A stretch of DNA of 25,871 nt from IMG/VR virus record IMGVR_UViG_3300023179_000456, positions 1 to 25,871 of that record, one strand, 5' to 3'. The notes beneath the pieces are model-generated. The model saw only the letters and a program-made list of their open reading frames with translations. It was not told where the DNA came from and searched no databases. The number at the start of each line of letters is the position of its first letter. Position 1 is the first letter of the stretch. Both the position numbers and the translations under genes were made by a program. This DNA comes from a virus. Below are positions 9,311 to 24,005 of the stretch, piece by piece.

Positions 9311-9736
9311 CTAAGTGGATAAATTGGCAACGCTTGTGCGATACCTAATCAGATAATCGCATGAAATAACGCCAGCCGGTTGGTCAGCTTCTTGCATGTC
9401 AAAATCAACAGCAATTGGCTGAATATCTATAGCATAACCACCAAGCGTCAAATCAACCATCATCTTGGCATGTAAGCTTTCAACAATTGGGTCCGCTACT
9501 TGATCTGGTATTGCGCCCCGTACAATTACTGCAACACGTACAGTTAAACTCCAATCCAATGTCGGCAACGCCGTATTCTGTTGCGCGGTATCACTAAGCG
9601 GTTCAACCACAATTGCAGGTGATTCACCGCGTGCAATAGGTTCTACCCTACTGCGATAAATTCTAGTACTAACTCCTGTGGTGCCAGCCAGCGTAGATAT
9701 GATGGCCGCCAAAATTGTTTCGCGGCGTGTTGCCAT
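9311..9736 (-). CDS. Tail terminator / tail completion protein (gpU-like)
   Basis: 141 aa. Pattern of minor tail protein U family: an N-terminal helix (RETILAAIISTLAG), a strand with arginines (STRIYRSRVEPI), ESPAIVVEPLSD, a central strand (WSLTVRVAVIVRG), a helix (ADPIVESLHAKMM) and a beta C-terminus ending in YLIRYRT. Members form a hexameric ring that stops tube growth and joins the tail to the head. Its position between head-tail joining genes and the tube gene fits. It overlaps the upstream gene by 1 bp. Confidence 0.75.
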   Translation of the reverse strand: MATRRETILAAIISTLAGTTGVSTRIYRSRVEPIARGESPAIVVEPLSDTAQQNTALPTLDWSLTVRVAVIVRGAIPDQVADPIVESLHAKMMVDLTLGGYAIDIQPIAVDFDMQEADQPAGVISCDYLIRYRTSVANLST

Positions 9737-10353
9737 CAGAGCACCTCGCTTGCCACAAGGCGGCCACGCTTAAAGTCAATATTATCAGTGCCCGAATGGT
9801 TAGCGACAAATAACGCCACTTCAGCATTGTTGGCTACGCTGATCATCCAATTGGTAACCAGTTTGGCATCTTCATTTGAACCGCCGGTAAAAGCGCGGCA
9901 TTCAGTCGCATCAATAACCACACCATTTAATGCCAATTTAATACCAAGGATTTTATTATTACCGCTAACAGTGCGGGCATCAATGCTGCCATAAAAGCGA
10001 AATAGCTTTGTGCTACCGCTTGTGTTCTTGAGTGCAAATGTATTGGTGCTGCCAAGGGTCATGCCTTGAGCCGTTCCTGCATCAAGCGTTGCAGTCAGTC
10101 CGGTGCTGACGTAGGTGCCTTGAGTTGTAATGTTGATTGTGCCGGAGTCCATTTTGCTGCATTGGCCGCGAACCATGGTGGCAGTGCTGGCTGGGTAGTA
10201 GCTCAGCGTTGACCATGCAGTCGTGCCATCGCCTGCCTTGAGCTTGCGCGTATCGGTTTCAAGGCCGACCTCGCCGTTTAGCAACACCGGGTTGGCGGCT
10301 GTCCAATTAGCGGCTGTATCACGCCTCAATCGTATGCGGGCTGTACTGCTCAT
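9736..10353 (-). CDS. Fibre-like protein with Mtd-type N-terminal domain, in the connector region
   Basis: 205 aa. Residues 7-53 (RLRRDTAANWTAANPVLLNG, then GDGTTAWSTLSYY) are the same domain as at the N-terminus of the tail fibre at the left edge. Residues 60-205 look like a compact beta-sandwich (FALKNTSGSTKLFRFYGSID, LALNGVVIDATECRAF, VALFVANHSG, ending KRGRLVASEVL). Such a protein is expected at the distal tail, yet the gene lies between the head-tail joining and tail terminator genes, with 4-bp and 1-bp overlaps. It may be a neck whisker, head fibre or accessory adhesin. It is richer in GC-ending codons than the tail fibre copy. Confidence 0.68.
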   Translation of the reverse strand: MSSTARIRLRRDTAANWTAANPVLLNGEVGLETDTRKLKAGDGTTAWSTLSYYPASTATMVRGQCSKMDSGTINITTQGTYVSTGLTATLDAGTAQGMTLGSTNTFALKNTSGSTKLFRFYGSIDARTVSGNNKILGIKLALNGVVIDATECRAFTGGSNEDAKLVTNWMISVANNAEVALFVANHSGTDNIDFKRGRLVASEVL

Positions 10354-11348: not shown

Positions 11349-13733
11349 TCAGAGTGTGTTGTTGCCACGGCTGAATGATTCAGGGTGACGCACCGCAATG
11401 TCACAATCTTGCATCGCTACAACACGCACAGTACCAGAAGTGCTATGTGTGTATGGGTCAACCATTAAATCCAAGCCAGAGAAGTAGCCAATGATTAAGT
11501 CGGCAAAATTGCCAAACCACAAATCATTAGATGCAACTTGGTTAGAAAGGATACCGCGATAGCCATTAACCAAATCACCTTCCATCACAAATAGACCTGA
11601 GCCAGTGTCCTTGGCCTTGGTTTTAAGAGCGCCGCGCATAGCAGCATTCATCAAATACACAGGGCTGCCGGTCAATGCATTAGCGCCTGCTACATCGCTT
11701 TCTAGTGCTACCACTTCAGCAAATGTAGGAGTGTCAGCAGCAAAATCCTCAGTGCCAACACCAGTTGTTAGCTTGAGGCCTAATGGCTCACTGTTATTGC
11801 CGGTACCATAAAGGCCAGCAACGTCAATCTTAAGTGCCAATACACGGGCAAGATCATTGCGTACCATATTCTCAACGTCGATGCTGGATTGCAGCATCAA
11901 GCGGCGGCTGTAATCAGTAAAAGCTGCAACAGTACGTGGTGTCAGGCTTACTTGATCAACCGTTTGCTGGCTTTCAGTAGGTGCTCCAGACTCAGCTACC
12001 CAATAAGCAGTAGCAGCGCCGGATTGACGTGGGATGGCAACGTTACCAACCAAGCCGGTTAACACGGTGGCACCAGCTTGATCTAGTGCGGATGCATTAC
12101 GCAGCAAATCAATAAAGCTGCCAGCATCCAAATCAGTAGCAACTAAGTTACCGCCAGCAGTAGCAGCACCGACGTTTAAATCACGACGCAGCACATCCTG
12201 AGGAATTGTGATACCGCGTGATTGACGGCCCAATTTGGCAGCCGCAGCATCAGATGCTTCAATTTCAAATGCAGCCGATTCACGCGCAGCGCGGTCGGTT
12301 GGATTTGCTAAATAGTTGATGGCACGCAAAAATGAAAAGCTGCGGCTTTCCTTTTCGCTCATGCCAATGTCGGCAACGCTCATAGTCACAGGCTCCTGAT
12401 AGGTGTTTATTTTGTCTAAAACAGCAGCACGTGCCTCGTCGATTGAACGACCAGATTCGATTAGCTGTTGGCCAAGATCGGCCATTCCATGCTTAGTGCA
12501 TAGAGAATTGATGCTGGAGATGCGTGAGCGTTCAGCCTCAGCGGCTTCAGCCCGCACCACGGCCAGATCGGTGGTGGTGTTTTCCATAGGAGGAAGGGGA
12601 TCAGGGGATGGTGCTGCCGAAGCAGCGGTGGTAGTAGGTAGCAGTGATCTGCCAATCCCTACAGTTTTGTCAGCCGGAATTGAAACCATTGAGATTTCAT
12701 ACGGGCTCCATGCAGTGGCAACAAAGTTGCCGCTGCCTCGCTCTTCCATCTTATCAATGGAATAGCCGAAGGATACATTCCTAAGAATGCCATCCTTCAC
12801 ATCAGCTAAAATTTCTTGCGCAAATTCATTCTTGCTAAACCGAACACGCGCATAACCGCGCCTTGCTTTATCATCAATCCTTGCTGCTTCTACTACACCA
12901 ATAACACGATTTACATCATGATTAAATAGCAATGGTGCGCCATCGTTTAATCGGCTAAGGTCAGCAGCACTAACATCATGGCTTAATACTTCATTACCAA
13001 AATATCTAGCAACTGGATTCTCAGAACTAAAAGGGAACTCATAGGTGCGATCATCCATTTCGGCAAATGCCGTCATCTCTGCGCGGTGGAACTTGCGGCC
13101 TTCCATCCCTCGTAATGTTGCAATCTTCGTAAGCGTAGAAAACTTATGGCCAACCAACGTATCTGTTGCTTCCCAGCCATCTTGACCTTCCGAGTAAATC
13201 CTAATTAATGCCGCTGGGTCTTCAGGTGTTCCTTCAATAGTAAATTCACTCCCAGGCACATTGATGCTGCCTTCGCGTTCTATGCTTTCAATCTTGCCTT
13301 TTGCGGTGCCGCCGCTTGAATCCCACTGCACGAAATCACCATCTTGCAATTCGTCTGGTTCGGCGCGGTTAATTTGCATGAGCGTTCTATCTTGTATCTC
13401 TTTAATTCTACTACCTTTTGCGTTAGACCAACTCTGTCCTGCATCACCGCCCCATGCAGCCCATGCCACACGCCCGGGTGATGGATAGCCATCTTCACCT
13501 GGGTTAAAGCCTTCGCCTTGCTTATCTACTTCATGCCTGGCAAACCATGCCGACATCGCTATGACTGTAGCAGGGCTAAGCTCATCACCGCTTAAAATTT
13601 GGCTGGCACGGCTGGCAGCAACATCAGTGCCGCCTGCATTGCCTTCAGCTTTCCATGCCCGGTAGCGCTTGGCCTCTTCCCTCATACCTTCAGTGGGCAT
13701 AAGGTCTATCTCTTCGCCGTTAATATTTGCCAT
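11349..13733 (-). CDS. Prohead protease-major capsid polyprotein with two extra N-terminal domains
   Basis: 794 aa in one uninterrupted frame. Residues 1-120 form a Trp-rich domain (REEAKRYRAWKAEG, GEDGYPSPGRVAWAAWGGD) of unknown role. Residues 128-205 are a small SH3-like segment (DGDFVQWDSSGGTAKGKIES, DPAALIRIYSEGQDGWE). Residues 209-365 are an HK97/S78-type prohead protease, with His272 in FNHD and Ser321 in NVSFGY as candidate catalytic residues and the family ending EISMVSIPADKTVGIGRS. Residues 385-450 are a helical delta/scaffold-like linker. Residues 465-794 are an HK97-fold major capsid protein (GNVAIPRQSG, SRRLMLQSSIDVENMVRNDL, YGTGNNSEPLGL, ending ESFSRGN). Protease-capsid fusions are known; the enzyme should cut itself and the linker away during maturation. 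It overlaps the portal gene by 14 bp. Confidence 0.88.
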   Translation of the reverse strand: MANINGEEIDLMPTEGMREEAKRYRAWKAEGNAGGTDVAASRASQILSGDELSPATVIAMSAWFARHEVDKQGEGFNPGEDGYPSPGRVAWAAWGGDAGQSWSNAKGSRIKEIQDRTLMQINRAEPDELQDGDFVQWDSSGGTAKGKIESIEREGSINVPGSEFTIEGTPEDPAALIRIYSEGQDGWEATDTLVGHKFSTLTKIATLRGMEGRKFHRAEMTAFAEMDDRTYEFPFSSENPVARYFGNEVLSHDVSAADLSRLNDGAPLLFNHDVNRVIGVVEAARIDDKARRGYARVRFSKNEFAQEILADVKDGILRNVSFGYSIDKMEERGSGNFVATAWSPYEISMVSIPADKTVGIGRSLLPTTTAASAAPSPDPLPPMENTTTDLAVVRAEAAEAERSRISSINSLCTKHGMADLGQQLIESGRSIDEARAAVLDKINTYQEPVTMSVADIGMSEKESRSFSFLRAINYLANPTDRAARESAAFEIEASDAAAAKLGRQSRGITIPQDVLRRDLNVGAATAGGNLVATDLDAGSFIDLLRNASALDQAGATVLTGLVGNVAIPRQSGAATAYWVAESGAPTESQQTVDQVSLTPRTVAAFTDYSRRLMLQSSIDVENMVRNDLARVLALKIDVAGLYGTGNNSEPLGLKLTTGVGTEDFAADTPTFAEVVALESDVAGANALTGSPVYLMNAAMRGALKTKAKDTGSGLFVMEGDLVNGYRGILSNQVASNDLWFGNFADLIIGYFSGLDLMVDPYTHSTSGTVRVVAMQDCDIAVRHPESFSRGNNTL
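12393..12397 (-). promoter_or_regulatory. Possible internal ribosome-binding site for a free major capsid protein
   Basis: AGGAG on the minus strand, 9 nt before an in-frame ATG (codon 451, at 12383) that precedes SVADIGMSEKESRSFSFLRA. This is just where a stand-alone capsid gene could start (344 aa). The ATG at codon 383 has only pyrimidines before it. Internal initiation would supply capsid subunits in excess over protease; direct evidence is lacking. Confidence 0.35.
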
Positions 13734-18352: not shown

Positions 18353-18997
18353 TTAACGTGCGGACGCAATTGCTTTTTGCAAAGATGATTGAAAATAAAA
18401 ATCGAATCGTCTCTGAATTACTTTATTAACTATTTCTTCCATCGGATAACGCGGTTGATATGTAGGTGTTGCAGTAATAAACATAGGAACTAAGCGATCA
18501 CGTCCGGCTCTACCTTGCCGTTGCCATACACCTCGTTCACGATTACCGCCTTTTGGTATACCAATAAATACTGAGCCTTTACCTGTTGCATTAGTAGCAG
18601 CACCAAGCTTTGTAATTGCTGCCTTGGTTGGGTTGCCATATGAGTTGAGTTTAATTGCAGCAGGAACTAATCGACCAAGGCCAAAACGCTGCTCAAATGG
18701 CTTGATGCCACGATTACCACCTTTGATTTCTGTGCGTAGGTATCGACCACGTTTTGATTCAGCACCAACAATACCAATTAAATTAATTTTATTTGCTTTT
18801 TCTACTTGAAAACCTTTTTGTGTAAATGATGTAGGGTTATTAAAATATTGACGTGTTGCGCCACCAAGTGATGTACGTGCATCAAAAGCAGTGGAGTTTA
18901 TAGCATTAGCAGTAGCAAAACGCATTTGCTTTGACATAGCAGCAGCATAGTTAGCTGCTTTATCTAAGTCTGATTTAACTGCAATGTTTACATTCAT
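18353..18997 (-). CDS. Minor tail protein Z-like / neck protein
   Basis: 214 aa. The N-terminal half (AAAMSKQMRFATANAINSTA, ARTSLGG, YFNNPTSFTQKGFQVEKANK) and the centre (RYLRTEIKGGNRGIKPFEQR) follow the pattern of phage minor tail Z-type proteins, which are strongly basic head-tail or tail-completion factors. It is rich in Lys/Arg with no Cys. It is placed before the terminase genes and not among the connector genes, and a 163-bp gap separates it from that operon. Start overlaps the upstream small gene by 4 bp. It could instead be another neck or DNA-binding structural protein. Confidence 0.6.
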   Translation of the reverse strand: MNVNIAVKSDLDKAANYAAAMSKQMRFATANAINSTAFDARTSLGGATRQYFNNPTSFTQKGFQVEKANKINLIGIVGAESKRGRYLRTEIKGGNRGIKPFEQRFGLGRLVPAAIKLNSYGNPTKAAITKLGAATNATGKGSVFIGIPKGGNRERGVWQRQGRAGRDRLVPMFITATPTYQPRYPMEEIVNKVIQRRFDFYFQSSLQKAIASAR

Positions 18998-19185
18998 GAT
19001 GCATCGGCCAGAGCTTCAATGATTTTATCGTAGTCGCGGCTGAAGGATAGTACTAGGTCTAGTGAGATGGGGTGCTGCTCGTCTTGGGCATTATCGCGGA
19101 TGGCATTGGCTATGGCTAGCGCTTCGGTCATTAATGCGTCTAGGCGGTCGATGCAGGGGCGGTTGCGATCAGAAATAATAACCAT
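18994..19185 (-). CDS. Hypothetical 63-aa protein
   Basis: Acidic, almost entirely helical by eye (RLDALMTEALAIANAIRDNA, LVLSFSRDYDKIIEALADA). No recognised domain. It is the first gene after the iteron region and overlaps the Z-like gene by 4 bp (ATGA), so the two are probably co-expressed. A TATAAC hexamer at 19199-19204 (minus strand) could be a -10 giving a very short leader, but there is no matching -35. Confidence 0.6.
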   Translation of the reverse strand: MVIISDRNRPCIDRLDALMTEALAIANAIRDNAQDEQHPISLDLVLSFSRDYDKIIEALADAS

Positions 19186-19506
19186 GCTGTGATTAGGTGT
19201 TATAGGTTAATAGTAACCGATAAGGCTGATTAGGTCTACTTTGCTTAACATTGCGCAATGTGGCGCCGTCTAACCTCGTCTAACCTCGTCCTAACCTCCG
19301 TCTAACCAGACCCATTGGTATGACTGGCCGTCCAACCTCGTCTAACCTATTTACTAAAAAAAGTTTGGAAATAAGAAAAGGAGAGATGTAAGGTCTTTAT
19401 GGAGCAAAAATACGTGATGCAGGGAAAATCCCAAAACTTTGTTGGAAGGTTAGACGGCTAGTAGGTTAGACGGCAAAATCAATTGGTATGACTAAGCCAA
19501 TCCGTC
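19186..19506. other. Non-coding region with iterons and AT-rich centre: candidate replication origin
   Basis: 321 bp without a credible gene on either strand. From left: a GGTTA/TAACC hairpin at 19205-19218, a 14-bp palindrome at 19248-19261, six head-to-tail CGTCTAACCT-type units at 19267-19348, an A/T- and A/G-rich stretch at about 19349-19440 with few cytosines, two inverted units at 19447-19472, and a further direct unit running into the primase stop codon. ATTGGTATGACT occurs at 19314-19325 and 19482-19493. Iterons beside a melting-prone segment and next to the primase-helicase gene are what iteron-type phage and plasmid origins look like. The alternative is a multi-site operator. Confidence 0.6.
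19248..19261. repeat. 14-bp perfect palindrome
   Basis: ACATTGCGCAATGT, which reads the same on both strands, directly left of the first iteron and followed by GGCGCC. Likely a dimeric protein site belonging to the origin or operator region. Confidence 0.55.
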
Positions 19507-19513
19507 CTAACCT
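19267..19513. repeat. Iteron array, consensus CGTCYAACCT (7 direct, 2 inverted)
   Basis: Direct copies at 19267-19276, 19277-19286, 19287-19297 (one extra C), 19299-19307 (lacks final T), 19329-19338, 19339-19348 and 19503-19513 (one extra C; spans the primase stop). Inverted copies AGGTTAGACG at 19447-19456 and 19463-19472. Copies are 10-11 bp, several without spacers, so this is not a CRISPR array. Likely binding sites for the primase-helicase or another initiator. Confidence 0.75.
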
Positions 19514-21501
19514 TTGGAATAGTGCCAGCGACGCCTTCCATGCGGTTCGCGTTGCTTGATGTAACCAAGATCTTTAAGGATGGTGGCGATTTGCATTTGG
19601 TCGATGCGTGTTTGACGCTCGACGGGCTTATTAATGGCTTTGGTCAAAAGCTCTTCTGATGTAAGCGGCTCAACTGATGAACGTGTGGTGAGGTAGGTTG
19701 CAACCACGTCTCGCCATGGCGAATCAATGACATAAGCATCATTTTCGTTAGTTACTAATTGTTCCAAATGAGCTGGTAATCGACTGGTTTCGCCATTGCG
19801 ATAGGCTAATACTGCGGCAGACCAGATAGAATCTCGTTCCTTTTCTAGGCTGTCTGTATCAATTTGGTCTTGGTTTGTTTTGGTTGTTGGTATAACCCAA
19901 AAGCGACGGTTGCCGGTTTCATCTACTAAGAAACCAGCGCTTTTGTTTGTAGTGCCAACGATGATGCCACGACGTGGGAAGTCTTCAACGGCTTTACCGT
20001 ATGGCACACGTAACATATCAACTGGCCGCGACAGAAATGATTTTATATGGCCTGCATGTTTGCGTGATGTTATTTGGTCTAATTCTGCCCATTCCATTAT
20101 CCATGAACGGTGTAATACCATTACATCATCTTTAGAACCTATATCACCAAGAGCATCAGAAAAGAATAAACCGCCAAGTTTGTGCCAAAAGGTAGATTTA
20201 AAACTACCTTGCCCGCCCATTAAAACGCAGGCAGTGTCGTGCTTGCAACCTGGGTTAAATGCACGTGCTACGGCACCGATTAATGTACGTTTTAACATCT
20301 CATCATATATTGTAGGTTCTGGTGTTACAGCATCTTGCGGCCTTAGGTAAGCAGTAGCTAAACGGTCGATATATTTAGGTTTTACTACTTTAGCGCAATT
20401 ATCTAGGTATTCAGTTACAGGGTCATACTGACGCTCGTTAGCAACTTGCACTAGGCAGTCGATTGCTAACTCTTTTGATACTTTAACATTTTGCTCTGCA
20501 AGGGTTAGGTAATAGCGTTCAATGCCAATAAGAGGCTTTTCATTTATTTCAATTTGCCGTGTAAAGGTATTAAAGCGGATGTTATCGGTAGTAGTGCGTA
20601 GGTAAGTTAATAGTTCAAGTGTTTCAAGTTTTGATGGCTTATCAAGTATTGGCTTTGCCTCTACTGGTGGTGCTAATGCTTTTGGTGTAGGTGCTGTAGG
20701 TGCAGACCGGTTGGCTTTTAGGTATGCAGCGGCTTCTGCAATGGACCAGTGTGCATCAGCTAAATCCCATCCTTCAGGCACGTCTGCTGGAGGTGTGACG
20801 ATACGAACCTGAGCGGCGCCAAGGTTAAGTAATTTGGCTGATAATTTATCCATGGCTTGGATGCCAGGTACGTCAGCATCAGGCCATAATGTGCAGTTGC
20901 GACCTATTAGTGGCGCCCAGTCTGCTTTGTCAATAGCTTTACAACCGCTGGGCCAGGTAATGGCCACGGCTGATGGAAATAGTTTGGCGGCTGCGTCTGC
21001 TGTTTTTTCGCCTTCAACTATTAGAACCGGCGCATTAGCTCTGGACGCGATAGCTGCAAGGTTGTATAGCGGGCGCGGTGCAGGTGGCGCTTTCCATAAC
21101 CATTGCGAGCCATCCCACCATAAGGGCCGGATCTTTTTGCCTGAAAAGCGGCAGATAAGAAAATCAGAGCTGTAGTGCCAGATATGCTCAGCGTTTTTGA
21201 TTGGCGGTTCTGGCTTGATGCCTAGATGTTGCTCGATGCGTTTGCAGGCTTCAGGATAAGTGAGACCCGTGCGACGCATTAACATATCCATACCACTACC
21301 GGCGCCGCCGGTATGATCTTTACCGCCACATTGATTGCAAAACCAAGAACCGTTGCCGTCTATGTCATCAAAACGATAACGATCTTCACCACCGCATAAC
21401 GGGCACGGCTGATGCTTGTTAGTAAGTTGCTCTGGTGTCAGGCCAGCAAGCTGCGACAGCAGGTCAGGCCACCTGCCGCGTGCTGCATCGAGGATGGTCA
21501 T
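19507..21501 (-). CDS. Primase-helicase: zinc-binding, Toprim and VapE-type ATPase domains
   Basis: 664 aa. Residues 33-58 carry a primase zinc ribbon (CPLCGGEDRYRF, Cys33/36, and CNQC, Cys55/58). Residues about 157-235 are a Toprim fold, with Glu163 in LIVEGEKTADA and Asp208/Asp210 in LWPDADVPG as metal ligands. Residues about 320-545 are a VapE/D5-like superfamily 3 ATPase, with P-loop GGQGSFKST (Lys435), acidic WIMEWAELDQ near 470 and the sensor-like GTTNKSAGFLVDETGNRRFW. The C-terminus looks like a small winged helix (QMQIATILKDLGYIKQR). It should open and prime the phage origin and unwind DNA ahead of a host polymerase. The iteron array begins at its stop codon, and its start overlaps the ribbon-helix-helix gene by 4 bp. 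Confidence 0.92.
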   Translation of the reverse strand: MTILDAARGRWPDLLSQLAGLTPEQLTNKHQPCPLCGGEDRYRFDDIDGNGSWFCNQCGGKDHTGGAGSGMDMLMRRTGLTYPEACKRIEQHLGIKPEPPIKNAEHIWHYSSDFLICRFSGKKIRPLWWDGSQWLWKAPPAPRPLYNLAAIASRANAPVLIVEGEKTADAAAKLFPSAVAITWPSGCKAIDKADWAPLIGRNCTLWPDADVPGIQAMDKLSAKLLNLGAAQVRIVTPPADVPEGWDLADAHWSIAEAAAYLKANRSAPTAPTPKALAPPVEAKPILDKPSKLETLELLTYLRTTTDNIRFNTFTRQIEINEKPLIGIERYYLTLAEQNVKVSKELAIDCLVQVANERQYDPVTEYLDNCAKVVKPKYIDRLATAYLRPQDAVTPEPTIYDEMLKRTLIGAVARAFNPGCKHDTACVLMGGQGSFKSTFWHKLGGLFFSDALGDIGSKDDVMVLHRSWIMEWAELDQITSRKHAGHIKSFLSRPVDMLRVPYGKAVEDFPRRGIIVGTTNKSAGFLVDETGNRRFWVIPTTKTNQDQIDTDSLEKERDSIWSAAVLAYRNGETSRLPAHLEQLVTNENDAYVIDSPWRDVVATYLTTRSSVEPLTSEELLTKAINKPVERQTRIDQMQIATILKDLGYIKQREPHGRRRWHYSKG

Positions 21502-21683
21502 TTAGTAGCTGGCAGGATGCCGTCGCGGTATAGACGCATGGTTTGCTCTAGCAGGATGCGGATGGCGGTACCTCTGCTCATGCGGTCACCACGCCATGAA
21601 TCCAGCCACTGGAGTAGGTCTGGGCTAAGTCGGAGGCTAAATGGTCGGGCTAATTGCATCGGCGGCGGCTGGTTGCTTGACAC
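21498..21683 (-). CDS. Ribbon-helix-helix DNA-binding protein
   Basis: 61 aa from GTG at 21683, or 53 aa from ATG at 21659. AAGG 7 nt upstream favours GTG; the conserved part starts only at ARPFSLRLSP, so both are possible. The core ARPFSLRLSPDLLQWLDSWR followed by MSRGTAIRILLEQTM has the ribbon strand plus two helices of Arc/MetJ-like repressors. It is the first gene of the minus-strand transcript and faces the helicase-methyltransferase operon across a 63-bp gap that contains a perfect inverted repeat. It likely represses one or both divergent promoters and may also act in replication, being coupled to the primase gene. Confidence 0.7.
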   Translation of the reverse strand: MSSNQPPPMQLARPFSLRLSPDLLQWLDSWRGDRMSRGTAIRILLEQTMRLYRDGILPATK

Positions 21684-21746: not shown

Positions 21747-24005
21747 ATGACCTACAAAAACTTTCTAGCCTCAAAGTCCACCGCGTGCCTTGCAGTCGGT
21801 TTTAACCCGCTGGAATTCACGGCGCCGCTGTTTCCGTTTCAGCGCGACATCGTTACCATGGCGTGCCGCGTTGGCAAGTTCTGCATCTGGGCTGATTGCG
21901 GCATGGGTAAGACCGCCATGCAGCTTGAGTGGGCACATCAAGTGCATCAGCACACTGGCGGCAATGTACTTGTGCTGGCGCCGCTTGCCGTTGCACACCA
22001 GACCGTGCGCGAGGGCAGCAAGTTCGGCATCCCGTGCAGCTTTGCCGCGACGCAATCCGACGTGCAACTTGGAATTACGATTACCAACTACGAGAAGCTC
22101 AGCCATTTTGATTCGGCAGCCTTTGATGGCGTGGTGCTTGATGAGAGCAGCATCCTAAAAGCGTACACTGGCAAGATCCGCAACCAGATCATCGAGTCAT
22201 TTGCGCAGACGCCATTCCGTCTGGCCTGTTCAGCCACGCCAGCGCCTAACGATCACATGGAGCTGGGCAACCATGCCGAGTTCATCGGCGTGATGACACG
22301 CACCGAGATGCTGGCTATGTTCTTTGTCCATGACGGCGGCGATACCAGCAAGTGGCGACTTAAAGGTCACGCCAAAAATAAGTTCTGGGAGTGGGTATGC
22401 AGTTGGGCGATCACGATCCGCAAGCCATCGGACCTTGGCTACGACGACGGCAACTTTATTTTGCCCGAATTATTTATTCAAGATTGCACTGTCGAAACAC
22501 CACGCGATGCCATAGCAGACGATGCTGGTCAGATGGCGTTATTTGCAATGGAAGCACGCACGTTGAGCGATCAACGGCATGTGCGCAAGGCATCATTGCA
22601 GATGCGTGTTGATGCTGCTGCAGAACTGGCCAACAGCAATAACGAGCAATGGTTGGTGTGGTGTGACCTTAATGACGAATCAAAGGCGCTCACTGATGCC
22701 ATTGATGGAGCCGTTGAGGTATCAGGTAGCGACAGCGATGACCACAAGCGCCATGCTGCGATTGACTTTCAAGATGGCAAAATTCGCGTGTTGGTGAGTA
22801 AGCCCAGCATCTTTGGATTTGGCCTTAACTTTCAAGGCTGCCACAATGTCGCCTTTGTTGGCTTGTCGCACAGCTACGAGTCGTTCTACCAAGCAATCCG
22901 CCGGTGCTGGCGATTTGGGCAACAGCATTCGGTCAATGCGCACATCATCTACGACGTGGCCGAGGGTCGCGTCATTGAAAACATCCGACGCAAAGAAGCG
23001 GACAGCATCGCTATGGCTCAATCAATGGTCACCATCATGAAACAAACCACTATGGAACAACTTAAGAAGATCCAGCGTCAAGTGGCGCCGCACATCACCG
23101 AGCATAAGTCCGGTGACAACTGGGATATGTATATGGGCGACTGCATTGAGAGCATTAAGCAGCTCGACTCAGACAGCATTCACTACAGCATCTTTAGCCC
23201 GCCTTTCGCGTCGCTGTACACCTACTCCAACAGCGATCGCGACATGGGCAACAGTCGCAATGATCAAGAGTTTTTTGATCACTTTGTTTACCTAGCCAGA
23301 GAACTGCATCGGGTGATGATGCCAGGCCGACTCATTAGCTTCCACTGTATGAACCTACCCAGCAGCAAACAGCGCGACGGCTTTATTGGCGTGAAGGATT
23401 TTCGCGGTGACATGCTGCGGATCTTCCAGTCGGCTGGGTTTGTCTTTCATTCAGAAGTCTGCATCTGGAAAGATCCCGTAACTGCTATGCAGCGCACCAA
23501 AGCGATTGGTTTATTGCACAAGCAGATCCGCAAAGATTCAGCACTGAGCCGCCAAGGAATTCCTGACTATCTGGTCACGGTGCGCAAGTTAGGCGACAAT
23601 CCTGAGCCATGCGCTGGACTATTCACTGAGTTTGCCGGTGAGAACGCACCAGCTAAAACCGGCGATCCAATTAAGGACAGCATTAACATTTGGCAGCGCT
23701 ACGCCAGTCCGGTGTGGATGGACATTAATCCATCGGATACGCTGCAATACCGCAGCGCACGCGCTAACGATGATGAGCGGCACATTTGCCCGTTGCAGCT
23801 AGAAGTAATCCGGCGCGGCCTGCAGCTATGGAGCAACCCAAGCGATCTGGTGCTCAGCCCATTCGCTGGGATTGGCAGCGAAGGTTATGTAAGCCTGCAG
23901 ATGGGCCGCCGGTTCGTTGGCTTCGAGCTGAAGCCCAGCTATTTCAACTGCGCCGTCAAGAACCTGCAGCAAGTGGAATCGCACAATCAAGGAGTGCTGA
24001 TGTGA
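21747..24005 (+). CDS. SNF2-like helicase fused to beta-class DNA methyltransferase
   Basis: 752 aa. Residues 28-440 form a superfamily 2 helicase: FPFQRDIV, P-loop CGMGKTA (Lys55-Thr56), LDES (Asp132-Glu133), SAT (162-164) and QAIRRCWRFGQ (motif VI, 382-392). Residues about 458-745 form an amino-methyltransferase with motif IV SPPF (484-487) before motif I SPFAGIGSEG (704-713) and GFELKPSYF after it. That order is beta class, modifying adenine N6 or cytosine N4, with residues about 575-680 as a possible target-recognition region. Motif I has Ser where DPF is usual. It could modify phage DNA against restriction, as the helicase-methyltransferase DarB does for phage P1, or act in replication. 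Start at 21747 precedes FLASKSTACLAVGFNP, a normal beginning for the helicase part; an ATG at 21731 is out of frame. Confidence 0.88.
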   Translation: MTYKNFLASKSTACLAVGFNPLEFTAPLFPFQRDIVTMACRVGKFCIWADCGMGKTAMQLEWAHQVHQHTGGNVLVLAPLAVAHQTVREGSKFGIPCSFAATQSDVQLGITITNYEKLSHFDSAAFDGVVLDESSILKAYTGKIRNQIIESFAQTPFRLACSATPAPNDHMELGNHAEFIGVMTRTEMLAMFFVHDGGDTSKWRLKGHAKNKFWEWVCSWAITIRKPSDLGYDDGNFILPELFIQDCTVETPRDAIADDAGQMALFAMEARTLSDQRHVRKASLQMRVDAAAELANSNNEQWLVWCDLNDESKALTDAIDGAVEVSGSDSDDHKRHAAIDFQDGKIRVLVSKPSIFGFGLNFQGCHNVAFVGLSHSYESFYQAIRRCWRFGQQHSVNAHIIYDVAEGRVIENIRRKEADSIAMAQSMVTIMKQTTMEQLKKIQRQVAPHITEHKSGDNWDMYMGDCIESIKQLDSDSIHYSIFSPPFASLYTYSNSDRDMGNSRNDQEFFDHFVYLARELHRVMMPGRLISFHCMNLPSSKQRDGFIGVKDFRGDMLRIFQSAGFVFHSEVCIWKDPVTAMQRTKAIGLLHKQIRKDSALSRQGIPDYLVTVRKLGDNPEPCAGLFTEFAGENAPAKTGDPIKDSINIWQRYASPVWMDINPSDTLQYRSARANDDERHICPLQLEVIRRGLQLWSNPSDLVLSPFAGIGSEGYVSLQMGRRFVGFELKPSYFNCAVKNLQQVESHNQGVLM
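23989..23994 (+). promoter_or_regulatory. Ribosome-binding site that fixes the helicase start
   Basis: AAGGAG, 10 nt before the ATG at 24005. The same frame is open back to 23786, but that extension is a shadow of the methyltransferase end, so 24005 is the start. Confidence 0.65.

Follow-up and report, generated by a model that had tools for sequence, protein, structure and literature searches.

PICIs invariably have an AT-rich region 3′ of the initiator gene with a set of iterons on each side of it, a layout that has been described as unique to phage satellites, and the pri-rep-ori unit of these elements has been assayed for plasmid maintenance (PMC6092414). The C-terminal domains of SaPI Rep and Cch2 recognize iterons directly downstream (PMC7581432; for SaPI, per Ubeda et al. 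2007 as cited there). We found a comparable arrangement in the IMG/VR record IMGVR_UViG_3300023179_000456, the entire 25,871 nucleotides of which constitute the window analyzed here. We consider it highly likely that replication of this cyanobacterial siphophage starts within the region at about 19248-19513 and that the protein reading this origin is the VapE-type primase-helicase of the adjacent upstream gene, by way of its C-terminal winged helix. The best reading of the locus is a PICI/SCC-type replicon, i.e., a helicase-initiator with an iteron origin directly downstream, which is housed in whole phages.

The gene set of this 25.9-kb record is that of a siphophage, with a lambda-type portal, a fused protease-capsid protein, a tail tube, a tape measure and a GpA-type terminase. 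We accordingly rejected the possibility that it is itself a PICI, as an element encoding its own portal, capsid, tail and terminase proteins is not a helper-dependent satellite. The primase query matched 1,710 phage records, and the nearest isolates by this protein are the Synechococcus phages S-LBS1 (MG271909) and S-H1 (MK105819), from which we infer a picocyanobacterial host. Other products of the window include a helicase fused to a DNA methyltransferase (21747-24005; ResIII/Helicase_C and N6_N4_Mtase), which is 88-92% identical in many relatives, and a prohead protease and major capsid protein in a single 794-aa frame (11349-13733) with a Hva1_TUDOR domain near its N-terminus. The protein encoded at 9736-10353 displays an N-terminal Mtd_N domain (major tropism determinant N-terminus, PF18454), and the start of the long protein encoded at 3-1727 resembles this Mtd_N-bearing start.

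The 664-aa primase-helicase (19507-21501, minus strand), which we propose to be the initiator, was characterized through Pfam and PHROGs, a PDB match, an architecture survey and a model of its winged helix. It combines a Zn-ribbon and Toprim-like N-half (residues ~1-280), the Toprim-like assignment being based on homology to the S-H1 N-half, with a VapE AAA+ helicase (378-590), the core of which matches PDB entry 7pds, titled 'Similar to D. nodosus vapE', and a C-terminal winged helix (~591-664). Primase and helicase-initiator are fused in one protein by virtue of the Zn-ribbon and VapE domains, a feature of the PICI-type replicons. The start of its gene is overlapped by that of a small RHH-type protein (21498-21683, minus strand), which belongs to a transcriptional repressor PHROG. 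The segment coding for residues 591-664 (19510-19731, minus strand) was analyzed by partial Mantel tests, mutual information, co-change on a tree and AlphaFold, which predicts a winged-helix fold for residues 583-664 (mean pLDDT 85) and places residue 657 in the wing; the AlphaFold model of the C-terminal half is poor in the AAA+ core, and a Foldseek search with the winged-helix model recovered generic winged-helix proteins only, none of them significant. The alpha protein of phage P4 is also a fused primase-helicase whose C-terminal winged-helix DNA-binding part binds iterons, and P4 possesses a second distant site (crr) besides ori. The likeness of the window protein to alpha lies in the fusion of primase and helicase with a C-terminal winged helix, and no second array was found within this partial record. 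A previous sequence-only reading of this DNA drew an analogy to P4 alpha; the nearest precedent is instead the PICI/SaPI/SCC replicon, whose origin directly follows the helicase gene on its 3′ side.

The array comprises nine matches to CGTCC?[CT]AACC (consensus CGTC(C)YAACC) at 19267-19513, seven on the plus strand and two on the minus strand. Composition-matched shuffles of the whole window gave a mean of 0.14 and a maximum of 1 such match, and 5000 shuffles of the local segment never gave more than 1; further, the repeat content of the array segment is the highest in the record, exceeding that of all 622 other 360-bp windows scored. These counts bear out the seven direct and two inverted copies noticed in the sequence-only reading, and add that an 11-bp form, CGTCCTAACCT, accounts for two of the direct ones (19287-19297 and 19503-19513). 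Six direct copies make up the cluster distal to the primase gene (19267-19348), starting at 19267, 19277, 19287 (the first 11-bp form), 19299 (with A as its final base), 19329 and 19339. The second cluster, at the 3′ end of the gene (19447-19513), consists of both inverted copies (19447-19456 and 19463-19472) and the remaining direct copy (19503-19513), which had been placed in the region of the primase stop codon and does contain it (19507-19509; CTA on the plus strand, TAG on the minus strand). The stretch described earlier as AT-rich and C-poor is the 98-bp tract between the clusters (19349-19446), with 68% A+T, as against 54% in the window, and 9% C on the plus strand; the innermost iterons of both clusters point inward toward this tract, which we propose to be the melting site, and the same layout is also seen in relatives. 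The reported 14-bp perfect palindrome, ACATTGCGCAATGT, is likewise present at the outer edge of the array (19248-19261). Elsewhere in the window, which is probably an incomplete record, there are two stray one-mismatch matches to the iteron versus 1.4 expected by chance. An Rfam search found no family at the array, its two weak sub-threshold matches both falling outside of it.

To place the array in a wider context, we compared 80 viral contigs with a related primase, and further scans with each half of the protein raised the collection to 206 non-redundant loci with enough DNA; a scan of genome contigs contributed one relative, a Cyanobium assembly contig. The sequence-only reading had proposed a search of related phages, with the loss of the repeats beside a retained primase as the outcome that would tell against it; in the contigs that retain the related primase and have enough DNA past the gene, iteron matches are found just 3′ of it. 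The array begins at the primase stop codon, and this position immediately 3′ of the initiator gene, again a feature of the PICI-type replicons, is conserved, as is the two-cluster layout in representative related loci. The clusters surround an A/T- or C/T-biased tract, which in many relatives is C/T-biased with ~52% A+T. A generic repeat-density score ranks the array first in just 72 of the 206 loci, because repeats in coding DNA compete with it, and sequence-specific tests were therefore used. The distant VapE helicases of two unrelated phages, Marinobacter phage PS3 and Corynebacterium phage CL31, are also followed by two clusters, of GGTCACCCC and CTTGTCCCG repeats, respectively, and in both cases the 3′ segment beats every other window of the locus on the repeat score; in the other four of the six distant VapE phages examined (Mica, VarioGold, Haddon and Aval), an array 3′ of the gene is not clearly seen. 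The array is a conserved cis-element.

The two isolates have the gene neighborhood of the window, and their arrays match that of the window in position, immediately 3′ of the primase-helicase gene, and in layout. S-LBS1 has the VapE C-half in common with the window (62% identity) and S-H1 the Zn/Toprim N-half (58%), and the iterons of both differ from those of the window, being TGCCTAACC in S-LBS1 and CCGAACGG/CGTTAGG in S-H1; those of the Cyanobium contig are TTCCAACC. The S-LBS1 record has no origin annotated at the array, and the passages of the accompanying paper on origin and repeat describe none (PMC6157547). A literature search for VapE or cyanophages with iterons likewise returned nothing, a weak sign of novelty as most subscription papers lay outside its scope. 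Within the S-LBS1 array (34237-34641), a stretch of more than 100 bp is directly repeated, which could be a recent tandem duplication or an assembly artefact. Just beyond the array in most VapE relatives is a gene for an RHH (NikA-like) protein and, in the loci inspected, also one for the DNA polymerase III beta-clamp; the window lacks both at this position and has kept the next small gene (63 aa, 18994-19185). As in PICIs and SaPIs, the layout is one of two clusters around a biased stretch 3′ of the gene. It differs from theirs in that the unit resides in whole phages with their own virion genes and not in satellites, the helicase is of the VapE type, the N-half is Zn/Toprim or Prim-Pol, the tract frequently has a C/T bias instead of being plainly AT-rich, and replication is a prediction here. 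Cch2 of SCCmec resembles the window protein in being an initiator-type helicase, the isolated C-terminal domain of which binds short repeats directly downstream of its gene, but it has a separate polymerase-type primase, few repeats and a helicase of another subfamily (PMC7581432).

The survey of architectures revealed three combinations, namely a Prim-Pol N-half with a VapE C-half, a Zn/Toprim N-half with an S-H1-type C-half (80 loci), and a Zn/Toprim N-half with a VapE C-half. The last of these occurs only in the window and in L002 and L003, which are closely related to it, and this makes the window protein a natural chimera of the two families. Its N-half is 87% identical to those of L090 and L091, which have an S-H1-type helicase and GTAACA-type repeats; despite this shared N-half, the window has VapE-type repeats along with its VapE C-half. 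Across the loci, the repeat words are YWACC in the VapE class and GTAACA, CGTTAG and similar in the S-H1-type class. When each locus was assigned to the class of its nearest neighbor by repeated-word profiles, all 193 loci were correctly placed, and 192 of 193 when strictly non-coding DNA was used; barring this single miss on non-coding DNA, the comparison found neither a VapE helicase with an S-H1-type array nor the reverse. The window array has a best similarity of 0.55 within the VapE class as against at most 0.12 to the S-H1-type class. The repeats remain linked to the C-terminal half across exchanged cassettes. In one such case (L015 versus L108), the flanks are 96.7% (2,880 bp upstream) and 96.8% (3,037 bp downstream) identical, with no detectable similarity across the stretch of primase and array, and the right-hand boundary of the exchange coincides with the end of the array. 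In another (L055 versus L085), a stretch that runs from near the array end across the clamp gene and most of the terminase gene is 92.9% identical, and the primases and arrays differ. These pairs show exchange on both sides of a primase-plus-array unit. Matching units of protein and putative origin that can be exchanged are present in more than 100 related viruses of cyanobacteria.

Across 142 VapE loci, array similarity correlates with the identity of the C-terminal 74 residues (r 0.74). In partial Mantel tests on these loci, the correlation for the winged helix persists after controlling for the helicase core and linker (partial r 0.565; 0.54 (0.537) with strictly non-coding DNA), as opposed to partial values of -0.14 for the helicase core and -0.01 for the N-half. 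With the downstream RHH protein, which is encoded on the other side of the array, as a control for linkage, the partial r is 0.71 for the winged helix and 0.21 for the RHH protein. At the level of single residues, 22 of the 25 columns with the highest excess mutual information with the repeat lie in the winged helix, the best being residue 657, and none of 400 simulations on the tree reached the observed mutual information. Parsimony on one tree, from which the winged helix was left out, counts 12 changes at residue 657, of which 10 lie on branches that also carry a change at iteron bases -3/-2 (1.5 expected; P about 1e-8, or near 2e-6 after correction for the 232 columns from which the residue was picked by a scan). 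Residue 657 tops these 232 columns for co-change, followed by its neighbors 658 and 656; the association also holds on non-coding sites only, and with full-length wings alone 10 of 11 changes coincide (P about 5e-10). Joint recombination of the 3′ end of the gene with the array could inflate this signal, although other columns in the domain have far lower scores.

The pairings in full-length wings are suggestive of a simple code, wherein R657 mostly goes with GC at iteron positions -3/-2, Q657 with TG and L657 with TT; for example, S-LBS1 combines R657 with TGCC repeats, and otherwise similar Q657 domains (L257 and L181) are paired with CTGC or TTGC. In the window, the co-changing positions 656-658 are RRR, and the iteron that its C-terminal domain (residues 591-664) is predicted to bind is CGTCTAACC. 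As the window subgroup, with its CGTC repeats, has a wing that is one residue shorter, the R/Q/L code fits the relatives more directly than the window. Together, the conserved place, the tracking of the helicase half and the coevolution with the winged helix strongly support the initiator-iteron pair suggested in the sequence-only reading, and on the strength of the coevolution, the C-terminal domain of the helicase likely recognizes the iterons. That the helicase half and origin form a modular replicon exchanged as one unit by recombination, with origin specificity vested in a few wing residues through the 657 code, we regard as probable, if less assured than the origin itself.

Under the origin interpretation, winged helices would bind directly and dock helicase subunits onto the two iteron clusters, the wing being responsible for the variable repeat bases and the remainder of the domain for the constant YWACC half. 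By analogy with relatives, two hexamers would then form on either side of the tract, the latter would melt so that unwinding begins, and the fused N-terminal primase half would lay the first primers as the origin fires. A turn in GC skew lies close to the array in both the window and S-LBS1, but eight other genomes have no consistent pattern; hence, we do not count it as support. If the modular reading with its 657 code is true, initiation across more than 100 phage origins would follow a protein-DNA code that can be read. The loci furnish a large natural data set on origin reading by a helicase-initiator, with clear in vitro predictions. They also yield specific predictions of where replication starts in S-LBS1, in S-H1 and in many uncultured picocyanobacterial viruses related to them, and they show that the layout ascribed to PICIs only is present in whole phages, of Marinobacter and Corynebacterium as well as cyanobacteria, a point relevant to the ancestry of satellite replicons (PMC6092414 for the satellite-only layout).

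Of the alternatives, the one that best survives, though we deem it unlikely, is that the array serves the primase-helicase chiefly as a regulatory site, for transcription of its own gene or of genes downstream, with the true origin elsewhere: coevolution reveals a reader and its site and not the outcome of binding, and the genes on either side of the array share one reading direction. Against it, the protein is a helicase-primase, and the inward-facing two-cluster layout around a biased tract 3′ of the helicase gene is that of the tested PICI origins (PMC6092414). We rejected as quite improbable a cos/cosB-like packaging site to which the terminase small subunit would bind, notwithstanding the GpA-type (lambda-type) terminase and a small-subunit gene within about 1-3 kb of the array (directly after it in S-LBS1), because the site sequence does not track the terminase. 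CGTC-type repeats also occur with an unrelated Terminase_6-type enzyme, different arrays occur despite 93-97% identity from the array through most of the terminase gene, and it is the helicase half that the array accompanies.

RHH proteins are able to recognize short repeats in both orientations, and such proteins flank the cassette in many relatives; the repeats might therefore be operators or a centromere bound by one of them, and the sequence-only reading had listed the RHH protein as a candidate binder. This explanation, which we hold to be slightly more remote still, was rejected for both RHH genes, as dissimilar arrays occur in phages whose downstream RHH proteins are 97-100% identical and in phages whose upstream ones are 90-100% identical, their partial correlations with the array are 0.21 and 0.07 versus 0.71 and 0.70 for the winged helix, and the window has an array without a downstream RHH gene; the helicase C-terminus, and not the RHH protein, is the likely binder. 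Finally, an attP site with the repeats as integrase arm sites was dismissed as barely conceivable: S-LBS1 does encode an integrase, but its gene is about 10 kb from the array and its proposed att sites are elsewhere (PMC6157547), no integrase was identified among the window genes examined, and the array shows no link to one, its sequence tracking the helicase class instead.

Besides the iterons, the array of the window contains ATTGGTATGACT, a repeat absent from the sequence-only reading, with one plus-strand copy in each cluster region (19314-19325 and 19482-19493), the first being part of an imperfect dyad element within the iteron array. Imperfect dyads of ~16 bp are seen in many arrays (window 19310-19326 and 19478-19499; relatives such as L085, L090, L108 and L110), and those of the relatives carry CCTTGCGCTGCAA-like words in place of ATTGGTATGACT. 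There are 186 dyad-like matches as against 87 in shuffles, an approximately twofold excess. As the dyad is present with both helicase classes, its user may be something other than the iteron reader.
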